From a virus: 28,008 nt of DNA. Positions 1 through 16,200 of this stretch are shown piece by piece. Location of the stretch: positions 1-28,008 of IMG/VR virus record IMGVR_UViG_3300017971_000661. The stretch is one strand, 5' to 3'. Made by a program: the position numbers and the translations under genes. The stretch's first letter is position 1. Each line of letters starts with the position of its first letter. The notes below the pieces were generated by a model. That model did no database searches. It had not been told where the DNA came from and saw only the letters and a program-made list of their open reading frames with translations.

Positions 1-2180
1 TCGTACTTGAAAACTGGAAGCGTGAATTTTCCATGTATTCAAGAGTAACGCCAAGGGATATTGTAGTTCTAGTTGGTAGTACCAAGAAAAGAATTGAAAA
101 AATAGAAGAGAGAAAAGGTAGACCTACTATATTTATTCTTAACTATGATGTAATGAATAACGTAGAAATTCTTTATGCTCTACTAAAGCACAGAATTGAA
201 ATATTAGTGTGCGATGAATGTTTCCCAGGAGATACTGAAATCCTCACTGATAAAGGGTTTATTAGATTCGACCAATTAAAAAAGGGTACGCCAGTTGCGC
301 AGTATAGCGGTGAGACCGAGGAAATATCATTTGTTGTCCCAGTAAAATACATTAAGAAAAAAGCTACTGAAGGTCTTTTAAAAATAGAAAGTAAGAAGAT
401 GTCTTTAGTAGCTACTCCAGGGCACGATTTGATATACAATTTTAGAGGAGAAGTTCTCAAGGAAAAATTCAAAGATTTAAAACAAAACTCAAATATAAAA
501 ATCCCTGTTGCAGGTAAAGCAGTGGGTAGAGAAAGTTCTTTAACGAAATACGAAAAGCTTATGATAGCTCTGCAAGCCGATGGGTATATTCCCCCAAGTG
601 GAGATAGAATACAGTTTAGTTTCTGTAAAGATAGGAAAATTAATGAACTACTCAGCCTGTGTAAGGCTATGGGTATCGAATGTAAAGAACTAAATGATAG
701 ACCAGGGAGAAGAAGGTTCTCTGTACCTTGTCTTAAGGAATTTCAGACTAAGAAGATATACGATGTTATTAAATTAGATGAAATATCTTTTTTTAAGGCA
801 AGAGAAATTATCGAGTATATGGTTCTGTGGGATGGATATAAATCAAGCGAGAAAACTTATTACTATTCAAGTGCAGACAAGCTAGCAACAGAGTTCTACC
901 AAGCAGTTTGTATTTTAGCTGGATACAAATCAAATATGACAGTGCAAAAAGATGAGAGGAAAGATTCTTATTCTGATATCTATAGACTTTTTATATCGAA
1001 AACATCATCTCATATCACTTACCAAAATGTAGAGGTAGAGAAAAATAAATTTCAGGGTTATGTATATTGTGTATCCGTCCCCTACGGAAACATAGTTACC
1101 AGAAGAAATGGAAAGCCGATAATCACTGGCAATTGTCATATACTAAAAAATAATACATCTAAACGTGCCAAGGGAGTCTTTACTATTGCTTCTAACGAGA
1201 ATTGCAAGCACAGGTACTTACTCTCTGGCACACCTATTCTTAATAACGCAATGGATTTATTCATGCAGTATAAAGTAATGGACGGATACCTAGAAAAGGA
1301 GTCCACATTTGGGACTAACTTTTTCTGGTTCAGGAATACTTTCTTTGAAGATAGGAACGCAGCATGGTCCGGCCAGAAGAATCATTTCCCAGACTGGCAA
1401 CCAAGAGCTGCTACCTATGATGAGATGAACAAAAGACTTAATGAAAAAATGATGGTTGTTAAAAAAGAAGAGGTATTAAAAGATCTTCCACCACTGGTGA
1501 TCGAGAATAAATACCCTGAACTTTCGCCAGAACAAAAGAAAGCATACAAAGAATTAAAAGATGAGTTCGTTACCTATCTAAAAGAATTAGATGAGAGTGG
1601 GCAACCAAAGGCAGTAGTCGCCAAGCTAGCAATCACTAAAGCCTTGCGCCTTCAACAAGTTGTTACAGGGTTTGTTAAAACAGAAGACGGCGAAGAGATT
1701 GAGTTTAAGAAAGTACCTAGACTTGATGCTTTAAAGGAACTGCTTTCAGAGATTGCGCCAAGGAATAAGGTTATTGTATGGGCCATATTTAAAAAGAACT
1801 ATGAGCAGATAGGAAGAGTGTGTAAGGAGTTGGGCCTTGATTATGTTGAACTACATGGTGGGACCAAGGATCGCCAGGGGGCTGTAGATAAGTTTAATAA
1901 CGAAGCAGGGTGCAGGGTATTAATAGGGCATCCTGGAGCAGGGGGCATTGGAATTAATCTCGTGTCTTCCAACTGTTACATCAGGTACTCTAGAAGTTTT
2001 AAACTTGGAGATGATATACAGAGTGAGGCTAGGAATCACAGGAAAGGCTCCGAGGTACACGACAAGATTACAGGAATAAACTTAACTACGCTTGGTACGA
2101 TAGATGAATTGGTAGCAGAAGCCCTTGATAACAAGCAAAATATTTCAGATAAGATATTGAATTGGAAGGATAGGTTATGA
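1..2180 (+). CDS. SNF2-type DNA helicase, intein-containing, 5' partial
   Basis: ATP-dependent helicase or translocase of the SNF2 branch of superfamily 2, probably acting in phage DNA replication or recombination. The frame stays open to the left edge (in-frame codons from position 3), so the Met at 33 is probably internal. The residues just before it (LENWKREF) look like the SNF2 motif Ia region, and motif I must lie outside the window. Numbering from Met33: motif II is D61-E62 joined after splicing to C368-H369 (DECH), motif III is LSGTPILNN, motif V is GIGINL, and motif VI is the QSEARNHRKGS stretch followed by a typical SNF2 C-terminus. Residues 63-367 are an intein, described separately. 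The helicase assignment is firm; the exact cellular role is inferred from the neighbouring polymerase and nuclease genes. Confidence 0.93.
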   Translation, partial: VLENWKREFSMYSRVTPRDIVVLVGSTKKRIEKIEERKGRPTIFILNYDVMNNVEILYALLKHRIEILVCDECFPGDTEILTDKGFIRFDQLKKGTPVAQYSGETEEISFVVPVKYIKKKATEGLLKIESKKMSLVATPGHDLIYNFRGEVLKEKFKDLKQNSNIKIPVAGKAVGRESSLTKYEKLMIALQADGYIPPSGDRIQFSFCKDRKINELLSLCKAMGIECKELNDRPGRRRFSVPCLKEFQTKKIYDVIKLDEISFFKAREIIEYMVLWDGYKSSEKTYYYSSADKLATEFYQAVCILAGYKSNMTVQKDERKDSYSDIYRLFISKTSSHITYQNVEVEKNKFQGYVYCVSVPYGNIVTRRNGKPIITGNCHILKNNTSKRAKGVFTIASNENCKHRYLLSGTPILNNAMDLFMQYKVMDGYLEKESTFGTNFFWFRNTFFEDRNAAWSGQKNHFPDWQPRAATYDEMNKRLNEKMMVVKKEEVLKDLPPLVIENKYPELSPEQKKAYKELKDEFVTYLKELDESGQPKAVVAKLAITKALRLQQVVTGFVKTEDGEEIEFKKVPRLDALKELLSEIAPRNKVIVWAIFKKNYEQIGRVCKELGLDYVELHGGTKDRQGAVDKFNNEAGCRVLIGHPGAGGIGINLVSSNCYIRYSRSFKLGDDIQSEARNHRKGSEVHDKITGINLTTLGTIDELVAEALDNKQNISDKILNWKDRL
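219..1133 (+). other. Intein (Hint domain plus LAGLIDADG endonuclease) inside the helicase
   Basis: A self-splicing protein element of 305 residues (host residues 63-367). It starts with block A, CFPGDTEILT, whose Cys63 is the splicing nucleophile. Block B carries T128-P-G-H131 (TxxH). Block F is near VYCVSVPYGN and ends PIITGN, followed by the +1 nucleophile Cys368. The penultimate residue is Gly366 instead of the usual His. The centre holds two LAGLIDADG-like helices, LMIALQADGYI (Asp183) and EYMVLWDGYK (Asp267), each followed by DOD-endonuclease-like sequence, so a homing endonuclease is present and may be active. The insertion point is between Glu and Cys of the helicase DECH box. Boundaries are set by the conserved end residues and are confident; endonuclease activity is inference. 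Confidence 0.93.
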
Positions 2181-3503: not shown

Positions 3504-3506
3504 TTA

Positions 3507-3680
3507 GTTTTTTGTGGGTAGCGTGTAAGCTGTGGCGAGTAGTGTACTGCACTCACTCTTAAACGAGATGTAAACGGCCATTAGACACGAGTGAAAACTG
3601 TGTATCGTACATACGACCTAACTTGATTAGGCAGCAGATGCGGACACTACCCCTTGCGAGGGGCCTACATTTTTATTTGA
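3507..3680 (+). ncRNA. Structured intergenic RNA candidate with terminator-like end
   Basis: A gene-free stretch of about 190 nt with dense base-pairing potential. A long-range closing helix pairs GGGTAG (3516-3521) plus TGT (3524-3526) with ACA (3644-3646) plus CTACCC (3647-3652). Inside are CCTAA-CTTGA-TTAGG (3617-3631), TCGT-ACAT-ACGA (3605-3616) and a paired GAGT/GTG...CAC/ACTC arm near 3537-3558. It ends at a CCCCT-TGCG-AGGGG hairpin that shares three C residues with the closing helix, so the two structures exclude each other. It could be a regulatory leader of the gene at 3697, an RNase III processing site or a stand-alone RNA. I recognise no named family. Confidence 0.45.
3650..3678 (+). 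terminator. Possible weak intrinsic terminator or attenuator
   Basis: A perfect 5-bp GC-rich stem (CCCCT/AGGGG, loop TGCG, 3650-3663) is followed after six bases by TTTTTATTT. The U-tract is displaced from the stem, so termination is probably partial. It would separate the genes upstream from the small-gene cassette starting at 3697. Confidence 0.4.
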
Positions 3681-3696
3681 CAGCCAAGGAGATACA

Positions 3697-4344: not shown

Positions 4345-4619
4345 GCGATACAAAAACATTATACGTAAGAGGCGTTGATACAGAAGTAATCAACCACGTT
4401 ACAAACCATCACTTGATCAAAGGTTTTAAGAGCCGAGGCGAGTTTGTAAATACTTTGCTTAAGGCTGGACTACAGGCTTATAGAAGTTCAGTGAAAAAGA
4501 CTACTAAAAAGGTAGCAAAAAAGGCCACTAAAACTACCAAAAAGGTAGCTAAAAAGGCTAAAAAAGCCACTAAAAAGGCTGCTAAAACTACTAAAAAGGC
4601 CACTAAAAAGGCTAAATAA
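4341..4619 (+). CDS. Ribbon-helix-helix protein with histone H1-like lysine tail
   Basis: A 92-residue two-part protein. Residues 3-48 (a TLYVRGVD strand followed by two helices ending in FVNTLLKAGLQAY) have the pattern of a CopG/Arc-type ribbon-helix-helix DNA-binding domain. Residues 50-92 are almost only Lys, Ala and Thr in KKATKK/KKVAKK repeats, like the C-terminal tail of histone H1 and of bacterial H1-like proteins. The likely role is sequence-directed or general DNA binding and condensation in the infected cell. The start has GGAGAAG upstream and overlaps the previous stop; the stop TAA overlaps the ATG of the exonuclease gene. The domain assignment rests on pattern, not on alignment. 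Confidence 0.8.
   Translation: MSDTKTLYVRGVDTEVINHVTNHHLIKGFKSRGEFVNTLLKAGLQAYRSSVKKTTKKVAKKATKTTKKVAKKAKKATKKAAKTTKKATKKAK
4491..4617 (+). repeat. Degenerate lysine-codon repeat encoding the H1-like tail
   Basis: About 125 bp of imperfect tandem units around CTAAAAAGG(C/T) with short spacers encode the K/A/T-rich tail. The repeat structure makes the tail prone to length change by slippage. The opposite strand gives a spurious hydrophobic frame. Confidence 0.8.
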
Positions 4620-5248
4620 TGGTAGTAACTAAAGATAACATGCGCCAAGTAATCGAACACCTTCAATGCCAGACAAATATTGGTATTGATACAGAAGGAT
4701 ATGGCACAGAATTCGACGATAGATTGTTTGCTGTATCCTTCGCTACCGATTCATATAAGTTTTATTTGAACTTATATGATGGCCCTGATTATCTAGGGAA
4801 CCACGCGCCAGATAAATATGTAATGCCCTACGAATCTCTGAAAGAGTTCTCGCCTGTTTGGGATAATCACAATATCCACTGGTTTATCCACAATGCTTCA
4901 CATGATCTCCAGAAATTAGAATATGAAGGTGTAAAGCTTGCTGGCACTGTAGTTTGCACCATGATCTCAGAGAGAATACTTACCAATAACCTTGGTCCCA
5001 AAGACTACTCACTGGCACATTGTTCCCTGAGACGTGGCTGGTATAAGATTGATGAAGTTGAAAAGTGTATCACTGAAAATAAATTATATACCATGGTCCA
5101 AGTGCCAGGTAAGAAAAAGAAAATAAAGCGCAAGCACTTTGAGAAAGTTCCTTTTATATTGCTGGCTGAGTACGCTGAAAAAGATGCTGAGTTACATTTA
5201 AAGATAGGGTTGAGCCAGAGGAAAAAGGTTTATGAAAGCAGTCTATGA
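4619..5248 (+). CDS. Family A DNA polymerase, 3'-5' exonuclease subunit (split gene)
   Basis: The proofreading exonuclease part of a PolA-type DNA polymerase, made as a separate 209-residue protein. ExoI is D24-T-E26 (GIDTEG), ExoII is HNASHD (N92, D96) and ExoIII is Y185-AEK-D189, so all catalytic acids are present. It stops just after the linker that normally leads into the polymerase domain (the QRKKVYE region). The reading frame ends at 5248, while the polymerase begins at 5232 in the +1 frame. The start overlaps the preceding stop (TAATG). The two proteins probably associate to form a complete polymerase. Confidence 0.9.
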   Translation: MVVTKDNMRQVIEHLQCQTNIGIDTEGYGTEFDDRLFAVSFATDSYKFYLNLYDGPDYLGNHAPDKYVMPYESLKEFSPVWDNHNIHWFIHNASHDLQKLEYEGVKLAGTVVCTMISERILTNNLGPKDYSLAHCSLRRGWYKIDEVEKCITENKLYTMVQVPGKKKKIKRKHFEKVPFILLAEYAEKDAELHLKIGLSQRKKVYESSL

Positions 5249-6410
5249 TAATGAAATAAAACTTACAAAAGCCTGCAATGCCATGAAGGTTAGGGGCATT
5301 AAACTTAACTACGACTACACAGTTAAAGCAATGGAGTATGATCTTGGGGAACTGCAAAAAGAAAAAGAAAATTTTGAGAAGGTCACCGGAAGAACATTTA
5401 AGGACTCACCAAAGTTATTTAGAGAAGTATTTGATGAAGCAGGGGAGACGTACCCAAGGACCGAAAAAGGAAACCCCTCGTTCAAAAGAGAAGCCCTTGA
5501 AGAAATTAACACACCGACGGCGACTTGTATCAATAAAATAAGGAAGATAGAAAAGAAAATATCCTCATTCTATACAACATTCCTATACCTGGCAGACTCC
5601 AATAATATAATACACGCAAGCGCAAACTCTGGTGGAACTGTCACTGGCAGATTCTCCTACAAAGAACCAAATCTTCAGCAGCTTTCCAAGGAAGATAAAG
5701 AAAACGATGCTGGTAAACCCTTTTATATACGCGGCTGCTTTGAACCAAGGCCCGATCACTTCTACTGCGCGATAGATTACCAGGCTCAAGAGTACAGACT
5801 GCTAGTTGATTACGCTGGAGAAAAGGGAGTTATTGATGCTGTTATGGCAGGGGAAGACGTTCACCAAACAGTTGCGGATATGCTTGGAGTTTCAAGGAAG
5901 ATTGCTAAGAACTGTTCCTTCGCTCAACTTTATGGAGCTGGTATCCAAAAGCTTGCGGACATGATTGGTTGTAGCTATGAAGAGGCTAAGCATTTGCGCT
6001 CGTTATATATGGCACGACTTCCAAAGGTTAAGAAGTTTATCCAAGACGTAATGTACGTTGCAGAGAACCGAGGTTATATTAAAAACAGATACGGAAGAGT
6101 CCTTAGATTCCAGAGAGGGGAAGAATACAAAGCTGTTAACCATTTGATTCAAGGGACTGCGGCAGATACATTAAAGTTTTCTTTAGCCAAGATTTACGAG
6201 CAGAATAAACTAGATTATTTCCCAGTCACCTGCCTCATTCATGACGAGATAGTTTTAGAACTAAAGGAAGAACACACTGGAGTTATTGATAGTGTAAGAG
6301 ATATTATGTCTAAGACCTATGAGTCTTTTGATAAAGATTTGATCTTAGAGACTTCTGCGGAAGTATCTAGAAAATCTATGTCTGTTTGGGATATGCAAGA
6401 GTATGTCTGA
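5232..6410 (+). CDS. Family A DNA polymerase, polymerase subunit (split gene)
   Basis: A template-directed DNA polymerase for genome replication, 392 residues, corresponding to the palm, fingers and thumb of PolA. Motif A is D182-YQAQE. Motif B has R222, K226, F230, Y234 and G235 in the spacing of the O-helix. QGTAAD is conserved, and motif C is H337-D338-E339. F230 aligns with E. coli Pol I Phe762. The N-terminal residues (VYDNEIKLTKACNAM then KVRGIKLN) continue what the exonuclease gene lacks, so the two are halves of one ancestral gene. ATG 5232 has GAGGA about 9 nt upstream, inside the exonuclease gene, which suggests coupled re-initiation. A +1 frameshift is an alternative. Confidence 0.93.
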   Translation: MKAVYDNEIKLTKACNAMKVRGIKLNYDYTVKAMEYDLGELQKEKENFEKVTGRTFKDSPKLFREVFDEAGETYPRTEKGNPSFKREALEEINTPTATCINKIRKIEKKISSFYTTFLYLADSNNIIHASANSGGTVTGRFSYKEPNLQQLSKEDKENDAGKPFYIRGCFEPRPDHFYCAIDYQAQEYRLLVDYAGEKGVIDAVMAGEDVHQTVADMLGVSRKIAKNCSFAQLYGAGIQKLADMIGCSYEEAKHLRSLYMARLPKVKKFIQDVMYVAENRGYIKNRYGRVLRFQRGEEYKAVNHLIQGTAADTLKFSLAKIYEQNKLDYFPVTCLIHDEIVLELKEEHTGVIDSVRDIMSKTYESFDKDLILETSAEVSRKSMSVWDMQEYV

Positions 6411-6714: not shown

Positions 6715-7129
6715 TACTACAAATTCAGAGTCAGAAAGAGAACTCACCTTCCAACATCTAAATCGCTACGGCATCAACCCGTTTGCCGCAAAAGCACTGG
6801 TGGTTGAGTATATAGAAAAGGTATCGCCAAGGCCGTTAGTTGTTACAGTGAACCTTGAATCTAAAGCCAAAGATATTATGGACTTAAGGGAAGGGACCAA
6901 GCGCCAGGTTTATATCGAGATGAGAACACCAGGGAGAGTAGGCGTGAAAGCAACTGATATTGGCGTAAATAATACTATGCTTAAGATGCTTGCACTATCC
7001 TACTACCTGAATCGTAGGCCCAAGCCTTTTAGTTTCCTGTTCGCAGGAGTCGAGATTCATTTAAGGACTCCAGGAGTAGCTGAAGATAAGTACACCAATA
7101 TTGCTCGTAACATAATGGCTCGCAAATGA
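6704..7129 (+). CDS. Hypothetical protein in the replication operon
   Basis: A 141-residue soluble protein with mixed alpha/beta predicted character and no recognised motif. The start ATG overlaps the nuclease gene by 11 nt, and the stop overlaps the next start (ATGA), so it is part of a coupled operon. The charged helical first third and the short beta stretches (PLVVTVNLES, RQVYIEMRT) do not identify a family. Confidence 0.75.
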   Translation: MGFNTTNSESERELTFQHLNRYGINPFAAKALVVEYIEKVSPRPLVVTVNLESKAKDIMDLREGTKRQVYIEMRTPGRVGVKATDIGVNNTMLKMLALSYYLNRRPKPFSFLFAGVEIHLRTPGVAEDKYTNIARNIMARK

Positions 7130-7572
7130 GATCAAAAGACTTCTGCATAATACAAAGTGATGGCTCGATAGATTGTGGTGATGCTGTTAACTATGAAGGC
7201 CACTATAATTATTTAAACCCTACCAATCCCCTAGTTAAATCATTCTCTAAGTTCTATGAGGTTAAAGAAACTGGTGGATACGTCAGACATCCGGACCCAA
7301 CTATGACCAACTATGGTTTTGGTGCAGTCTATATAGACTACAAGAGAGGGTGTATAACCAGGGATCAGATGGTTGGCATTATCATGGGATTATTCGCCCA
7401 AGGCGATGAGGTGGCTAGTCTTCGGTTCGCATTGCACCACAAGAGGAGACACTTCCTTCGTACGTATTCAATGGTTAAAAGAGGTGAAGACATTAGAGAC
7501 AATGTAACCAGACAAGCAGATCTTACTGGCCCTGAGATATGGCAAATGGAAATAAGATTGCTGGGTGCTTAG
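7126..7572 (+). CDS. Hypothetical protein, last gene of the early operon
   Basis: A 148-residue protein, not recognised. It begins on an ATGA overlap with the previous gene. It has Tyr- and Gly-rich stretches (AVNYEGHYNYLNP), a central segment (GFGAVYIDYKRGCI) and a basic helix (ALHHKRRHFLRTYSMVKR). There is no membrane segment. It is the last tightly coupled gene before the 535-bp noncoding zone. No clear plus-strand terminator follows, so early transcription may run into that zone. Confidence 0.75.
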   Translation: MRSKDFCIIQSDGSIDCGDAVNYEGHYNYLNPTNPLVKSFSKFYEVKETGGYVRHPDPTMTNYGFGAVYIDYKRGCITRDQMVGIIMGLFAQGDEVASLRFALHHKRRHFLRTYSMVKRGEDIRDNVTRQADLTGPEIWQMEIRLLGA

Positions 7573-7620
7573 CCGTCTTCTGAAATGACCTCGACTTTGT
7601 ATGATTCCATCCTTATCTCC

Positions 7621-7667
7621 AACAAAAAGAACCGGGGAGTGAGACGTGCACTCTCAACTCCCCCGGT
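7621..7667 (-). terminator. Strong intrinsic terminator, minus strand
   Basis: Read on the minus strand, ACCGGGG(G)AGU(U)GAGA pairs with UCUCACUCCCCGGU around the loop GUGCACG. This gives a 14-bp stem with two single-base bulges (7631-7667). It is followed immediately by TCTTTTTGTT (7630-7621). It would stop the noncoding RNA below as well as any late read-through before it reaches the early genes. Confidence 0.85.
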
Positions 7668-7794
7668 CAATCCAGATCTTTCTCTGGTGTCCACCGATTA
7701 GCCTATTCTGACGTTGTCATCGGCAAGGAACTACGGCCTTGGATTAATTTATTTAGCGGTCAATCAGATCCTAGGCTACTGCGACCCCACCTTT

Positions 7795-7823
7795 ATTATA
7801 GATTAAAATGAACGGATTGTAAA
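7795..7823 (-). promoter_or_regulatory. Sigma70-like promoter P2, minus strand
   Basis: TTTACA (7823-7818), a 17-nt spacer, then a perfect TATAAT (7800-7795). Transcription would begin near 7788 and give a shorter RNA of about 165 nt ending at the 7621 terminator. The -35 element lies in one of the TTTACAAT motifs that recur in this zone. Confidence 0.65.
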
Positions 7824-8003
7824 TAATGAAAGCCACATTTTGTCGGGGCTCGAACCCGACTCCTGGATCTTGCTAGCGAGGAAGTCTGCCAGCACTCAAG
7901 AGGTATTTCTACCGATTTATTTTCCACCAACTATTGCCAGTCAGACTACTTAACGGAGTTCATCTTTTAGCTCAGGGAAGATATGTGGCACTCTCCCCAA
8001 TTT

Positions 8004-8032
8004 TTGATTCAAAAAGAAAGCCCCATTATAGT
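8004..8032 (+). promoter_or_regulatory. Possible plus-strand promoter toward the orphan ORF
   Basis: TTGATT (8004-8009), 17 nt, TATAGT (8027-8032). It overlaps the -10 element of P1 on the other strand, so the two could not be used at once. It would start near 8039 and feed the ORF at 8107-8523. It is weaker than P1 and could be fortuitous. Confidence 0.35.
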
Positions 8033-8053
8033 GATTGTAAACCCAATTGTAAA
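8025..8053 (-). promoter_or_regulatory. Sigma70-like promoter P1, minus strand
   Basis: TTTACA (8053-8048), a 17-nt spacer and a perfect TATAAT (8030-8025), with transcription expected to start near 8018. Five of six -35 bases and all six -10 bases match consensus. It has the same architecture as P2 about 230 bp away. Confidence 0.7.
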
Positions 8054-8079
8054 CCCTTGGGAGAATTAATTGTAAACTT
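8034..8079 (+). repeat. Three direct repeats ATTGTAAAC(CC)
   Basis: Copies of ATTGTAAAC lie at 8034, 8046 and 8069 (the first two continue as CCC), with spacings of 12 and 23 bp, about one and two helical turns. A related ATTGTAAA lies at 7816. One copy contains the -35 of P1. Possible operator sites or iterons, or remnants of duplicated promoters. Confidence 0.7.
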
Positions 8080-8097
8080 ATAAGGAGTTTACCCTAG

Positions 8098-8136
8098 TTT
8101 ATTAAGATGAGACCAAAATTGATTCATCTTAATAAA
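8098..8136 (+). promoter_or_regulatory. 13-bp perfect inverted repeat over a start codon
   Basis: The arms 8098-8110 and 8124-8136 (TTTATTAAGATGA and its exact complement) flank a 13-nt spacer. The ATG of the downstream ORF (8107-8109) is inside the left arm, so an RNA hairpin would hide it. It could also be a DNA operator. It has no U-tract, so it is not a classical terminator. Confidence 0.75.
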
Positions 8137-8523
8137 AGAGAAGGCCTGGGATCGGCTGGGAGGAGCTGCGTCTCCCTTACCGCGGCCATGGATCCGTCGT
8201 TATCTCTGCTCGAGACCGAATCCCAGGTCCTAGTGGCTGGATTCTCTGACTGGACTCTGCTTTATCTATGTGACGCTTGGTTACTGCTTGCTACTATATT
8301 CGATAGGCTTAACAGTAATGAAGACAACATAACATTCCTTGGCCAAGTGATAGTAGCCTTGGAACATCAACCAACTTTAATTGGCAAGTGGTTTATCAGG
8401 AATATAATCAGCATTAACCAGCAAAGAAAAAAGCTTAACAAGTATTGGGGTGGCTGGAGAAACAAAAGTTTCATGGTTCAACCTTACATTCAAAAACTCA
8501 TTAAGCTTCAAGTCGGTGCTTAG
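8107..8523 (+). CDS. Orphan plus-strand ORF convergent with the endolysin gene
   Basis: A 138-codon frame with no family I recognise. The last 90 residues have ordinary-looking phage codon use and composition, with a hydrophobic stretch (LLYLCDAWLLLATIF) and a basic end (RKKLNKYWGGWRNKSF). An open frame this long is unlikely by chance in AT-rich DNA. The first 45 codons lie in an unusually GC-rich, palindrome-rich segment. Translation signals are weak: AAGGAG is 19 nt from ATG 8107, and ATG 8188 has no visible ribosome site. The stop overlaps the endolysin stop region by 4 nt. It may be a late-added early gene, or a chance frame across a structured RNA. Confidence 0.45.
   Translation: MRPKLIHLNKREGLGSAGRSCVSLTAAMDPSLSLLETESQVLVAGFSDWTLLYLCDAWLLLATIFDRLNSNEDNITFLGQVIVALEHQPTLIGKWFIRNIISINQQRKKLNKYWGGWRNKSFMVQPYIQKLIKLQVGA
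8142..8229. other. GC-rich structured island with clustered palindromic hexamers
   Basis: CCTGGGAT plus CGG (near 8145-8155) pairs with CCG plus ATCCCAGG (8216-8228), giving an 11-bp stem with one bulge. Inside is a GGGAG/CTCCC hairpin (8158-8176). The interval between carries CCGCGG (8180), CCATGG (8186), GGATCC (8190) and CTCGAG (8209) within 35 bp, with AGGCCT at 8142. The island is clearly more GC-rich than the flanking DNA. It could be an RNA domain on either strand. Confidence 0.55.
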
Positions 8524-9095
8524 AACGGTTTAAGGAAGCCTCTGACTAACATGCTTCCTGTGCCTTTAATGTTTCTCTTCACCAGGTAAACACCGCCACC
8601 GTCTCTTACAACGTGACCATCAACAACACCTTTTTCAGTGTTACCTTCAAGTGTCCACATCTCGTCACCATCTGTGGCAAATACAATTCCAGTGTGACCT
8701 GAATTAGTCTTACCCTTTCTCCAGATAATGACAGCGCCGGGTAAAGGATAGAACCTAATCCTTTGTTCCTGGTCCGTTTTATTCCAGCAAGTTTGGACAT
8801 GTTCAGTTGCAAAAACTGGAGACACAATCTTAAACCTATTCTCAACGTAGGCAATCAGAGTCTGAACAAGGCTCATGCACCAAGGCTCAGATACAGCACC
8901 ACCAATAGTCTCTTGGATAAGTTCAACGAACTCTCCTCTATTGTTACCGCCTTCCTCTCTTATTCCTACGCAAGCTTGCGCTGCACAGACAAGAAGTAAA
9001 CGCGCGTCCCTATGAACTATTGCGTGTTGGGCAACTCCATTGCTATGAAGCTTGCTATCAATCCAATTATACATTTTCTTTTCTATTTTTCTCAC
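8520..9095 (-). CDS. CHAP-type endolysin (cysteine peptidase/amidase)
   Basis: A 191-residue peptidoglycan hydrolase of the NlpC/P60-CHAP superfamily. The catalytic Cys is in EPWCMSLVQ and the His is in SGHTGIVFA, followed by the typical LEGNT segment. It probably cuts stem-peptide bonds of the host wall at lysis. No signal peptide is present, so release needs a holin. The start is GTG at 9095, overlapping the preceding stop (GTGA), with a modest AAGGGA upstream. It is the last gene of the late operon. Confidence 0.85.
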   Translation of the reverse strand: MRKIEKKMYNWIDSKLHSNGVAQHAIVHRDARLLLVCAAQACVGIREEGGNNRGEFVELIQETIGGAVSEPWCMSLVQTLIAYVENRFKIVSPVFATEHVQTCWNKTDQEQRIRFYPLPGAVIIWRKGKTNSGHTGIVFATDGDEMWTLEGNTEKGVVDGHVVRDGGGVYLVKRNIKGTGSMLVRGFLKPF

Positions 9096-9394: not shown

Positions 9395-9590
9395 CGGTTA
9401 TTTCCTCTGCCTTAATAATTCTATCGGCTATGACTTCATTTCCTTTCTTGAACTCTTTCGCAGCTTCAGTTGTTTTCTCGTTGTCTTTATCTTCTGCATG
9501 CTTGTTCTTAATCCAAATATAAAACTTTTCTAGTCCCCACACCAAGGCGCTCGAAAGCACCTTGGATAGGACTACTGAAAGCGCACCCAT
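9330..9590 (-). CDS. Small membrane/coiled-coil protein, possible inner spanin or holin
   Basis: An 86-residue protein with an N-terminal hydrophobic or amphipathic stretch (VVLSKVLSSALVWGLEKFYIWI) followed by a long charged helix suited to a coiled coil. One N-terminal membrane anchor plus a periplasmic coiled coil is the plan of inner-membrane spanins. The next gene starts inside its 3' end, as Rz1 does in Rz. Its start overlaps the preceding stop (TAATG). A holin role cannot be excluded. Confidence 0.6.
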   Translation of the reverse strand: MGALSVVLSKVLSSALVWGLEKFYIWIKNKHAEDKDNEKTTEAAKEFKKGNEVIADRIIKAEEITDEDVQKARKAARNLIGRFGDI

Positions 9591-13222: not shown

Positions 13223-16200
13223 CTATCTCCCTTGAACTTTAAGTCTAAATTTACGTTCCATTCTCTTAAATTCTTCCTCAACTCCCTCGATCTCAGACAT
13301 CATCTTTTTCTTCGCAAGACTTCTATACTGCTTACCTACTTGGTATATCATTGCTTTTCTTGCAAGATCAGTAGGAGCGTTTTTGTATGCAAAGCTATCT
13401 ATTAATTTAGATAAAGATTGCTTAAGAGTAGGTCCACCAAGGCCGATTCCAGCACTTAATTTAACTAGTTTATGGTACTGTTTAGCATCTAATTCATACT
13501 TAAATACACCCTCTTGGGCCTTAGAAGTAATCCCTGTACTACCTACAACCATACCGAAGTTTACAATTCGATCTGGCATTGAAAGCAGTTCTCTAAAAGG
13601 TTCTGCTGCATCTGTAAATTCATCTGGTGCCAGCCTATAAAGTTCTTTATAAACAGGGTCCATGTTCTCATTAGTTAGATCATGTCTAAAAAATGGTAGC
13701 GCGTGTTCAACCTTAACGCCAGGAGGATAAGCTACCTCATCACCAAGTACGTTTAGTAATGGTGGCATATCTTTACCTAGACCTATTGTATCTAAGGCTT
13801 TATTGAAAACCTCGTCCCAGGCTTTCATAATACCCTTGGCCTTTGATTTAGTGTCACGTTTTATAGGATCAGATGCTACTGTACCAGTTTTTGTAGCTTC
13901 TTTAACTAACCCACCCATAGGGATAAAACCAGTTAAACTTAAAGGTACGTTGCCAGGCTTAGGGTCAGATAAGAACCTTGCAAGATCACCAAAGTTATTT
14001 AATGGTCCTTCAGGTATCATTAAATCTTTAACTAAAATTGCAGCCGCTCCTACTAACTCTTCATGGTCTGTGAAGTTGTCGTCTCTTACATAACCTGAAA
14101 TCTCCGCAAGATCAGCGCCTATTCCAAGTAGAGTTCCCAAAGGATCTAACCTGTCATACTTAACTGGCTTATCTCGACCTGGGATATTTAATACGTATTC
14201 ACCGTACCTAGAATCTCCAGTTAATTTCTTTTTAAACTTTCTTGAAGCAGCATTCCCACCAGTCATGTGACCTTGGTGAGTTAAAAAGGCCGCAGCTCCT
14301 AGTACCGAAGTACCCATTATTGTCTTGGAGATTGCTTCAGCCCTTGCCGCACCACCAGACGCAAATCCTGCTCTAATCTTAGGGCTAAGTAAGTTAATTC
14401 CAGGTACTCTTTGTACCGAGAAGTCCGCAAGGTTAGTTGCTGTTCTTACGAAAGGAACTGTTACGTTTACCACAGGTATTCTAGATAAACCCTTTTCAAA
14501 GTAATTAAGCACTTCACCAACATTTAAGTCATCAGTTCCTATAATAGGTACTTCACTTGCTCTAGCTCCAAATGCTGCTCTACTTGCAGCGCCTTCAACT
14601 GTATTAATTAACTCTGGCGTAGGGTTAGCAATAAGCTTTGACATATGTTGAGAAAACTCTTCAGTACCCTCTTTCAAACCTGCTTCTACAGCATCCCTAT
14701 AAACCAACTGGTTCATTGTAGATCGTTTAGCCACAGTCCTTGAAAAAGCATCCACCGCTTGAAGTCTACCCTGCCCACTTATTAAGTTACCTGTCGTATG
14801 AACTACTTTATTCCAAGCAGAACCCGTCTCTCCGGCTAAACCTAAACTCTCCATAGTGTCAGTAAATACTCTCTTAGTGTCAGTAAATCTTTGCTTAGTA
14901 ATATCTGTAGGTAACTTTGAGTGAACAAAGAAGTCTTTTGTATTTGTTAAACCTTCGATAAATGAAGTTGGTATTGCACGAGCTGCTGAAACTACTTCAC
15001 CAACGCTTGCGCCTTTTATGAAAGGTGATATCATACCCTGTATTGCCAGTTCTCCAGATCTTACAACACCGTATGATGCGTTACCTACCATTGCTGTTTT
15101 AGTAGTACCAAGACCTGCAATTAAGTTTGATAAGTAATAACCTTGGAATTTCTTAGATAATGTATCAAGTCTACCTTGCCCCATTGCTCTAATCGCGTTC
15201 CGTAAGTCAGCAGGTTTTTTTAATTTCCTAATCTTATCCATCTCTTTCACAAGATCAACAGCGTTATCTTTCCCCACCACTTTCATATATTGGTTTAAAT
15301 ACTCTCTTCTTAAGTCAGAGAGTTCCATTGTGTCAGTGACTTTAGCGATGTTCAAGGCTCTACCAATTTCAGAGAAAGTAGAGTTCCTACCCATCATTGC
15401 AACCTGAGCTTCCTGCATTTTAAGTACAGCCGCTTGCAGGTTTATGTCGTCACCATCAAAGTTCTTAATGTTTTCCATGAAGTCTACAACTTCATTCACC
15501 TTAGCTCTAGTGAAAATGTCTACGGCTCTAATCTCTTCAGCATTTAAAACTTCACCTGGAGTATGTGACCTTTGTAGAACTTCATTAAATTTCTTTTTAT
15601 TCGCCAGTATCCCAACTGCACGTAATGTAGTTTCTTCCTGCGGTATTTCACCACGTTTTGCAAGAGCTGTTATCTTCTTGATCTCAGCGTGTTTAGAAGT
15701 TTCCAGGAAAGCTGCCTCTAACTCTTCTAAAGAATTAGCTCCTTGTATTGTCTCCAAGTCTTTTGCATTAAAGTCCGAAGGCTCATACAAAGCTTTAAGA
15801 ACTTCATCTTCCTCTGGAGTAACTGGTTTAGCTTCTACCTTTGGTTTAGCCGTTTCCTTTGAAGGTATAGCGTCACCAACAGCACTTTCTTCAACCGCAG
15901 GAATACCAGTCTTTTGAGCAGCTTTTAGCTTACGCCCTTTTCTAACCATATTAAAAGACTTAGCAACAGCAGTTCCAAGTCCTGCCAGTCCTGCATCAAC
16001 CAATAAACTCTCTACAGAGTTTTTAACCCTAGACTCAAAAGCCTCATCGTCTTCATCAGAAAGTAACCAGCTTGGCACTAGCGGTGAAAGCATAGGCACT
16101 TCATTGGCGAAGTCTGCCACACGTTTCTCATCAGGGTCCATTAAGACACCGTTAATGGCAGCAGAACCAGCTAAAGCTTTACTTGCTTTGATAGCCTTAG

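Follow-up and report, generated by a model that had tools for sequence, protein, structure and literature searches.

The locus at the junction of the early and late genes of this phage raises the question of what, if anything, is transcribed from a long stretch of DNA that does not appear to code for protein. The window analyzed here, by which we mean the whole 28,008-base virus record (positions 1-28,008), is derived from an uncultured, podovirus-like phage whose proteins include a T7-like portal, a tail tube protein, a DNA polymerase carried by two ORFs, a SNF2-type helicase and an endolysin. Two near-identical sister contigs (G001 and G002) are 99.9-100% identical to the window over most shared stretches. 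Because G001 overlaps both window ends, the map closes arithmetically at approximately 39.7 kb, and this contig contributes primase and terminase genes from beyond the window. Early genes on the plus strand and late genes on the minus strand meet at the junction locus, confirming the convergent arrangement described in an earlier note on this DNA. The same note placed the locus directly downstream of the lysis genes. The region does lie downstream of the endolysin (8520-9095), but an opposing plus-strand ORF (8107/8188-8523) that had been missed intervenes between them, and its stop overlaps the endolysin stop.

Two further features of the early genes were observed. The polymerase ORFs (4619-5248 and 5232-6410) overlap and match successive parts of one polymerase profile. 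The helicase gene (window 3-2180) contains an in-frame insert of approximately 917 bp (about 220-1136; L007:1-329) with a sub-threshold Intein_splicing match. This insert is missing from the near-identical G001 and is likely an intein that is present or absent between sister phages.

The stretch from 7573 to about 8187 is the longest in this phage without coding signal. Codon statistics detected no coding signal in any of the six frames between 7560 and about 8190, the longest ORF wholly within 7573-8106 encodes 49 aa, and no trace of a decayed ORF was found in six frames of the region. These results agree with the proposal of about 400 nt of minus strand free of ORFs. GC skew over 7500-7949 is negative (-0.11 to -0.15), having the sign of the minus-strand late genes and the opposite sign to the plus-strand early genes, and the minus strand therefore looks like the sense strand.

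Analysis of the minus strand identified two near-consensus, sigma70-like promoters. P1 had already been recognized, while P2, which lies inside the unit and is as good as P1, had been overlooked. Both are located on one strand, 230 bp apart and upstream of the terminator, and they represent two of only four sites with at least 11/12 matches in the approximately 40 kb scanned, as judged against a sigma70-type consensus that may not be that of the host. Dinucleotide shuffling of 7573-8187 (n=4000) produced one minus-strand site of at least 11/12 in 0.35% of the shuffles and two such sites in none of them. The presence of P2 inside the unit means that two nested transcripts are to be expected. 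Also overlooked were four same-strand TTTACAAT boxes at 8076, 8053, 8041 and 7823. Half of the eight TTTACAAT copies in approximately 40 kb fall in this region, and three or more were obtained in 0/4000 shuffles. The -35 hexamer of P1 sits in the middle one of three direct GTTTACAAT boxes, and that of P2 in a fourth TTTACAAT. The near-helical spacing of the GTTTACAAT boxes suggests a bound regulator, making the array a possible operator.

The intrinsic minus-strand terminator described previously proved to be strong, since none of 300 dinucleotide shuffles of the region equalled it. A search for plus-strand terminators across 7572-8520 yielded nothing beyond one weak 5-bp hairpin. Elsewhere in the window, a 193-nt gap between early genes (3504-3696) contains a CCCCTTGCGAGGGG hairpin and, after it, a T-rich tail, with an overall fold at chance, and another strong hairpin resembling a terminator (GGTGCTTTCGAGCGCC, -24.4 kcal/mol) is located near 9524 on the minus strand, within small late ORFs upstream of the endolysin.

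Table 1 Features of the junction locus and its flanking genes (positions in the window)
Feature	Position	Strand	Details
Last early-block ORF	7126-7572	+	No family; stops 48 bases short of the terminator's far end (7621)
Intrinsic terminator, CCGGGGGAGT...CACTCCCCGGTTCTTTTTG	7621-7668	-	-22.3 kcal/mol, followed by a T-run
Predicted short transcript from P2	7621-7788	-	About 168 nt, ending in the terminator
Predicted long transcript, noncoding	7621-8018	-	About 398 nt; no coding signal; G-rich like sense strands elsewhere
Promoter P2, TTTACA-17-TATAAT	7795-7823	-	11/12 match; predicted start about 7788
T-arm-like hairpin, GTCGGG-TTCGAGC-CCCGAC	7842-7860	-	No other with a 6-bp stem in about 40 kb
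Promoter P1, TTTACA-17-TATAAT	8025-8053	-	11/12 match; predicted start about 8018
Three direct GTTTACAAT boxes	8034-8077	-	Start-to-start spacing 12 and 23 bp
Perfect 13-bp inverted repeat	8098-8136		Between P1 and the opposing ORF; z -5.5 and -6.7
Opposing ORF, 138 aa (111 aa from ATG at 8188)	8107/8188-8523	+	No family; copies only in the two sister contigs
Endolysin, last recognized late gene	8520-9095	-	PHROGs endolysin families

A promoter and a terminator on one strand around ORF-free DNA is the arrangement by which phage small-RNA genes are recognized, and it is the arrangement found here. As read from the DNA signals, namely the promoter pair, the terminator, the noncoding DNA and the GC skew, the central claim of the earlier note, an independent minus-strand noncoding transcription unit, is well supported. 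Its likely products are nested RNAs of approximately 398 and 168 nt, predicted to be made by a host sigma70 polymerase. Use of the host polymerase fits this phage, since no RNA polymerase gene was recognized among the scanned proteins of the window and sister contig, a set that included part of the small ORFs.

With regard to function, the layout leads us to favor, as a plausible rather than a probable reading, a two-promoter, one-terminator small-RNA unit that occupies an accessory slot and has an antisense or insulator action resembling that of lambda OOP. Host sigma70 RNA polymerase would start at the tandem minus-strand promoters, and both transcripts would end at the single intrinsic terminator to give the nested noncoding RNAs. 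Late transcripts reading past the endolysin would end at the same terminator (7668-7621), while a rightward early transcript continuing past 7572 would run through the unit. Because no plus-strand terminator lies between the early block and ORF 8107/8188-8523, the unit would oppose any early readthrough, and its RNAs would be perfectly complementary to the leader of this ORF on the readthrough transcript, an untranslated stretch of approximately 400 nt. Antisense pairing or promoter collision could then limit ORF 8107/8188-8523 and prevent early transcription from reaching the late block, in the way that lambda OOP acts on cII. An RNA of the OOP type acting in cis would be expected to reduce expression of the gene it faces by way of RNase III. 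The plus-strand coding signal of the opposing ORF increases from about 8220 onward until it equals that of the neighboring early genes, and its average over the ORF is borderline (near the 95th percentile of the null). Structure prediction of the 111-aa protein without an alignment gave an unusable model (mean pLDDT 49). Temperate model phages account for most of the phage small RNAs known, and the present unit suggests that noncoding RNA is employed by uncultured podovirus-like phages as well, at the junction of early and late transcription. Two of the genome's best sigma70-type promoters lie in the unit, which provides exact predicted 5' and 3' ends.

Nearly as likely as this OOP-like antisense model, and likewise only a possibility, is that the RNA of the unit is trans-acting or structural, serves host or phage regulation or protein binding, has no role in cis and is carried as accessory small-RNA cargo. 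The strong promoters combined with a terminator are in keeping with such cargo, as are the T-arm-like hairpin (7842-7860) and the relative G003, which lacks the locus in the manner expected of cargo. RNAs of this kind are top transcripts in L5, D29 and StarStuff (PMC5712189) and in ICP1 (PMC7567579). However, structure outside the terminator is near chance, and no target was found among phage translation starts, the set scanned here. Antisense pairing to these starts was no better than that of shuffled RNA; the best pairs involve the start at 8188, yet their energies are reached by 4/60 and 16/60 shuffles.

To place the locus in an evolutionary context, relatives were sought via the endolysin, DNA polymerase, portal, ORF 6704 and ORF 8188. 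This search returned the two near-identical contigs, one usable relative without the locus (G003) and others that do not cover it; divergent homologues of the locus were absent from the collections searched. Among the relatives found, G003 alone extends over the end of the early block, and its identity to the window is 59% for the DNA polymerase, 51% for ORF 6704 and 74% for the portal. An endolysin-like ORF of G003 (L019:1215-1715) matches the same PHROG endolysin families as the endolysin of the window, and 17 bases separate it from the last early-strand ORF (1733-2176). As the G003 junction consists of these 17 bases and holds no trace of the locus, we regard the locus as accessory. ORF 8107/8188-8523, with no relative beyond the sister contigs, is probably accessory too. 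Both sister contigs break within or beside the locus (at 7927 and 8238), which may reflect a variable block or assembly trouble, and 7573-7926 is consequently known from this one record only. At another site in G003, a GC-rich stretch of 186 nt separates two early-strand ORFs (L019:4783-4968, minus strand, equivalent to L024 about 13897-14082). The stretch is closed by a long stem (z -2.34, 1/200 shuffles) and has no Rfam match.

The contig breaks also bear on the view that the region is an ordinary untranslated end of the late operon, with promoter matches that are not used or remain from an accessory gene since lost. The breaks would fit a variable, possibly decaying block, and the terminator is located where the late operon must stop. 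We nevertheless consider this view unlikely, as two near-consensus promoters with box repeats would very rarely arise by chance and six-frame analysis revealed no remnant of a decayed ORF.

The unit had further been described as hairpin-rich and compared to ornate phage RNAs, and folding of the minus strand does not uphold this description of the body. The z score of 7621-8018 is -1.94 but only -1.26 without the terminator, that of 7830-8018 is -1.58, and that of the short RNA (7621-7788) is about -1.1 to -1.3. In 150-nt windows, most of 7700-7950 folds at background. A stronger signal was detected outside the region originally described, at 8090-8240 (z -3.75 on the minus strand and -2.73 on the plus strand), and 7621-8240 as a whole reaches -4.1. 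The latter value is not evidence for the RNA body because the folded stretch takes in both the terminator and the 13-bp inverted repeat. The inverted repeat, which has no T-run on either side, and the GC-rich 8139-8232 lie beyond the predicted transcripts, on the upstream side of P1. The 8139-8232 segment (63% GC) displays an imperfect 11-bp closing stem, a minus-strand fold z of -2.17 and the six-base palindromes CCGCGG, CCATGG, GGATCC and CTCGAG, and it overlaps a possible start of the opposing ORF. The signs said to favor the minus strand (a G-U pair, a GAAA loop and a TTCGAGC loop) were all located on that strand. The T-arm-like hairpin occurred in 0.5% of region shuffles in a post hoc test. 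A 7-bp helix (GCCACAU/AUGUGGC) closes a multibranched fold of 7830-8018, and three unpaired As separate the hairpin from this helix, unlike the arrangement in tRNA or tmRNA.

Family searches were consistent with the earlier statement that no known family could be recognized. Rfam gave no match at gathering score on either strand of the window, and a permissive search of both strands of 7500-8600 (E up to 10) retrieved no GOLLD or ROOL, group I intron or HEARO. ARAGORN, with and without introns, reported no tRNA or tmRNA, and its relaxed mode returned only low-quality overlapping calls. DNA similarity searches of phages, plasmids and distant relatives produced no match to the locus, exact T-arm patterns were absent from the viral contigs and genomes, and the T-arm followed by AAAA was present in no contig of genome_contigs. 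A tRNA or tmRNA identity was rejected, as ARAGORN finds no cloverleaf or tmRNA architecture and the T-arm-like hairpin fits no recognisable one. Membership in GOLLD or ROOL was rejected on the lack of a covariance-model match, a longest P1-to-terminator transcript of 398 nt and a z of -1.3 without the terminator, and a group I intron or HEARO was rejected for want of an Rfam match.

It is doubtful that the unit represents a new phage RNA family in which a tRNA T-arm mimic would form the 3' end of the first half and which, with tandem host promoters and a GTTTACAAT-box operator, would control the point where early transcription meets late. The reading first offered, a new family of structured RNA that is ornate or tRNA-like, appears very unlikely: the T-arm-like hairpin and the 7-bp helix closing 7830-8018 would suit it, but the fold z of 7830-8018 is only -1.6 and that of the body -1.3, three unpaired As lie between the T-arm and the closing helix, and neither an ARAGORN or Rfam match nor any relative was found. 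An attP integration site or tRNA remnant, to which the T-arm consensus hairpin might point, can be considered most improbable, given that no integrase was found among the scanned proteins (part of the small ORFs included) of the window and sister contig, which jointly close the map, and that the T-arm with AAAA recurs in no contig of genome_contigs.

Comparison with known systems indicates that the unit, as judged from its DNA, is probably a further example of the small-RNA genes already known from phages. Its proposed novelty therefore stands for the sequence, which is unmatched in the collections searched, but not for the type of gene. GOLLD and ROOL are likewise phage-borne noncoding RNAs whose function is unknown, but they are large (many GOLLD members exceed 800 nt), have a complex conserved structure and often lie near tRNAs (PMC12286853). 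The present unit differs from them in all three respects: it is half that size or less and without homologues, it folds near chance apart from the terminator, and the genome pieces read yielded no tRNAs. The ICP1 noncoding RNA, the most abundant ICP1 transcript, is a counterpart by setting, being an ORF-less phage RNA that adjoins the lysis cluster (PMC7567579), although it measures approximately 800 nt in a space of approximately 1 kb. In the cluster A mycobacteriophages L5, D29 and StarStuff, the noncoding RNA from Pleft (approximately 500 bp, no ORFs, strong early promoter) supplies the most abundant transcripts (PMC5712189). It is positioned at the start of the early block without a clear terminator, whereas the present unit has a strong terminator at a convergent end. 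Lambda OOP RNA, which runs from pO to tO and opposes cII (PMC5869508; PMC12197685), overlaps the end of the cII coding region by 52 bases, whereas the unit described here overlaps no recognized coding sequence, has longer predicted RNAs and two promoters, and belongs to a phage in which no lysogeny genes were recognized. The two nevertheless share a common design, in that each small RNA, predicted in the present case, has its own promoter and is ended by an intrinsic hairpin terminator; OOP is directed against an early transcript (PMC5869508; PMC12197685), as the unit would be if early transcription reads through.
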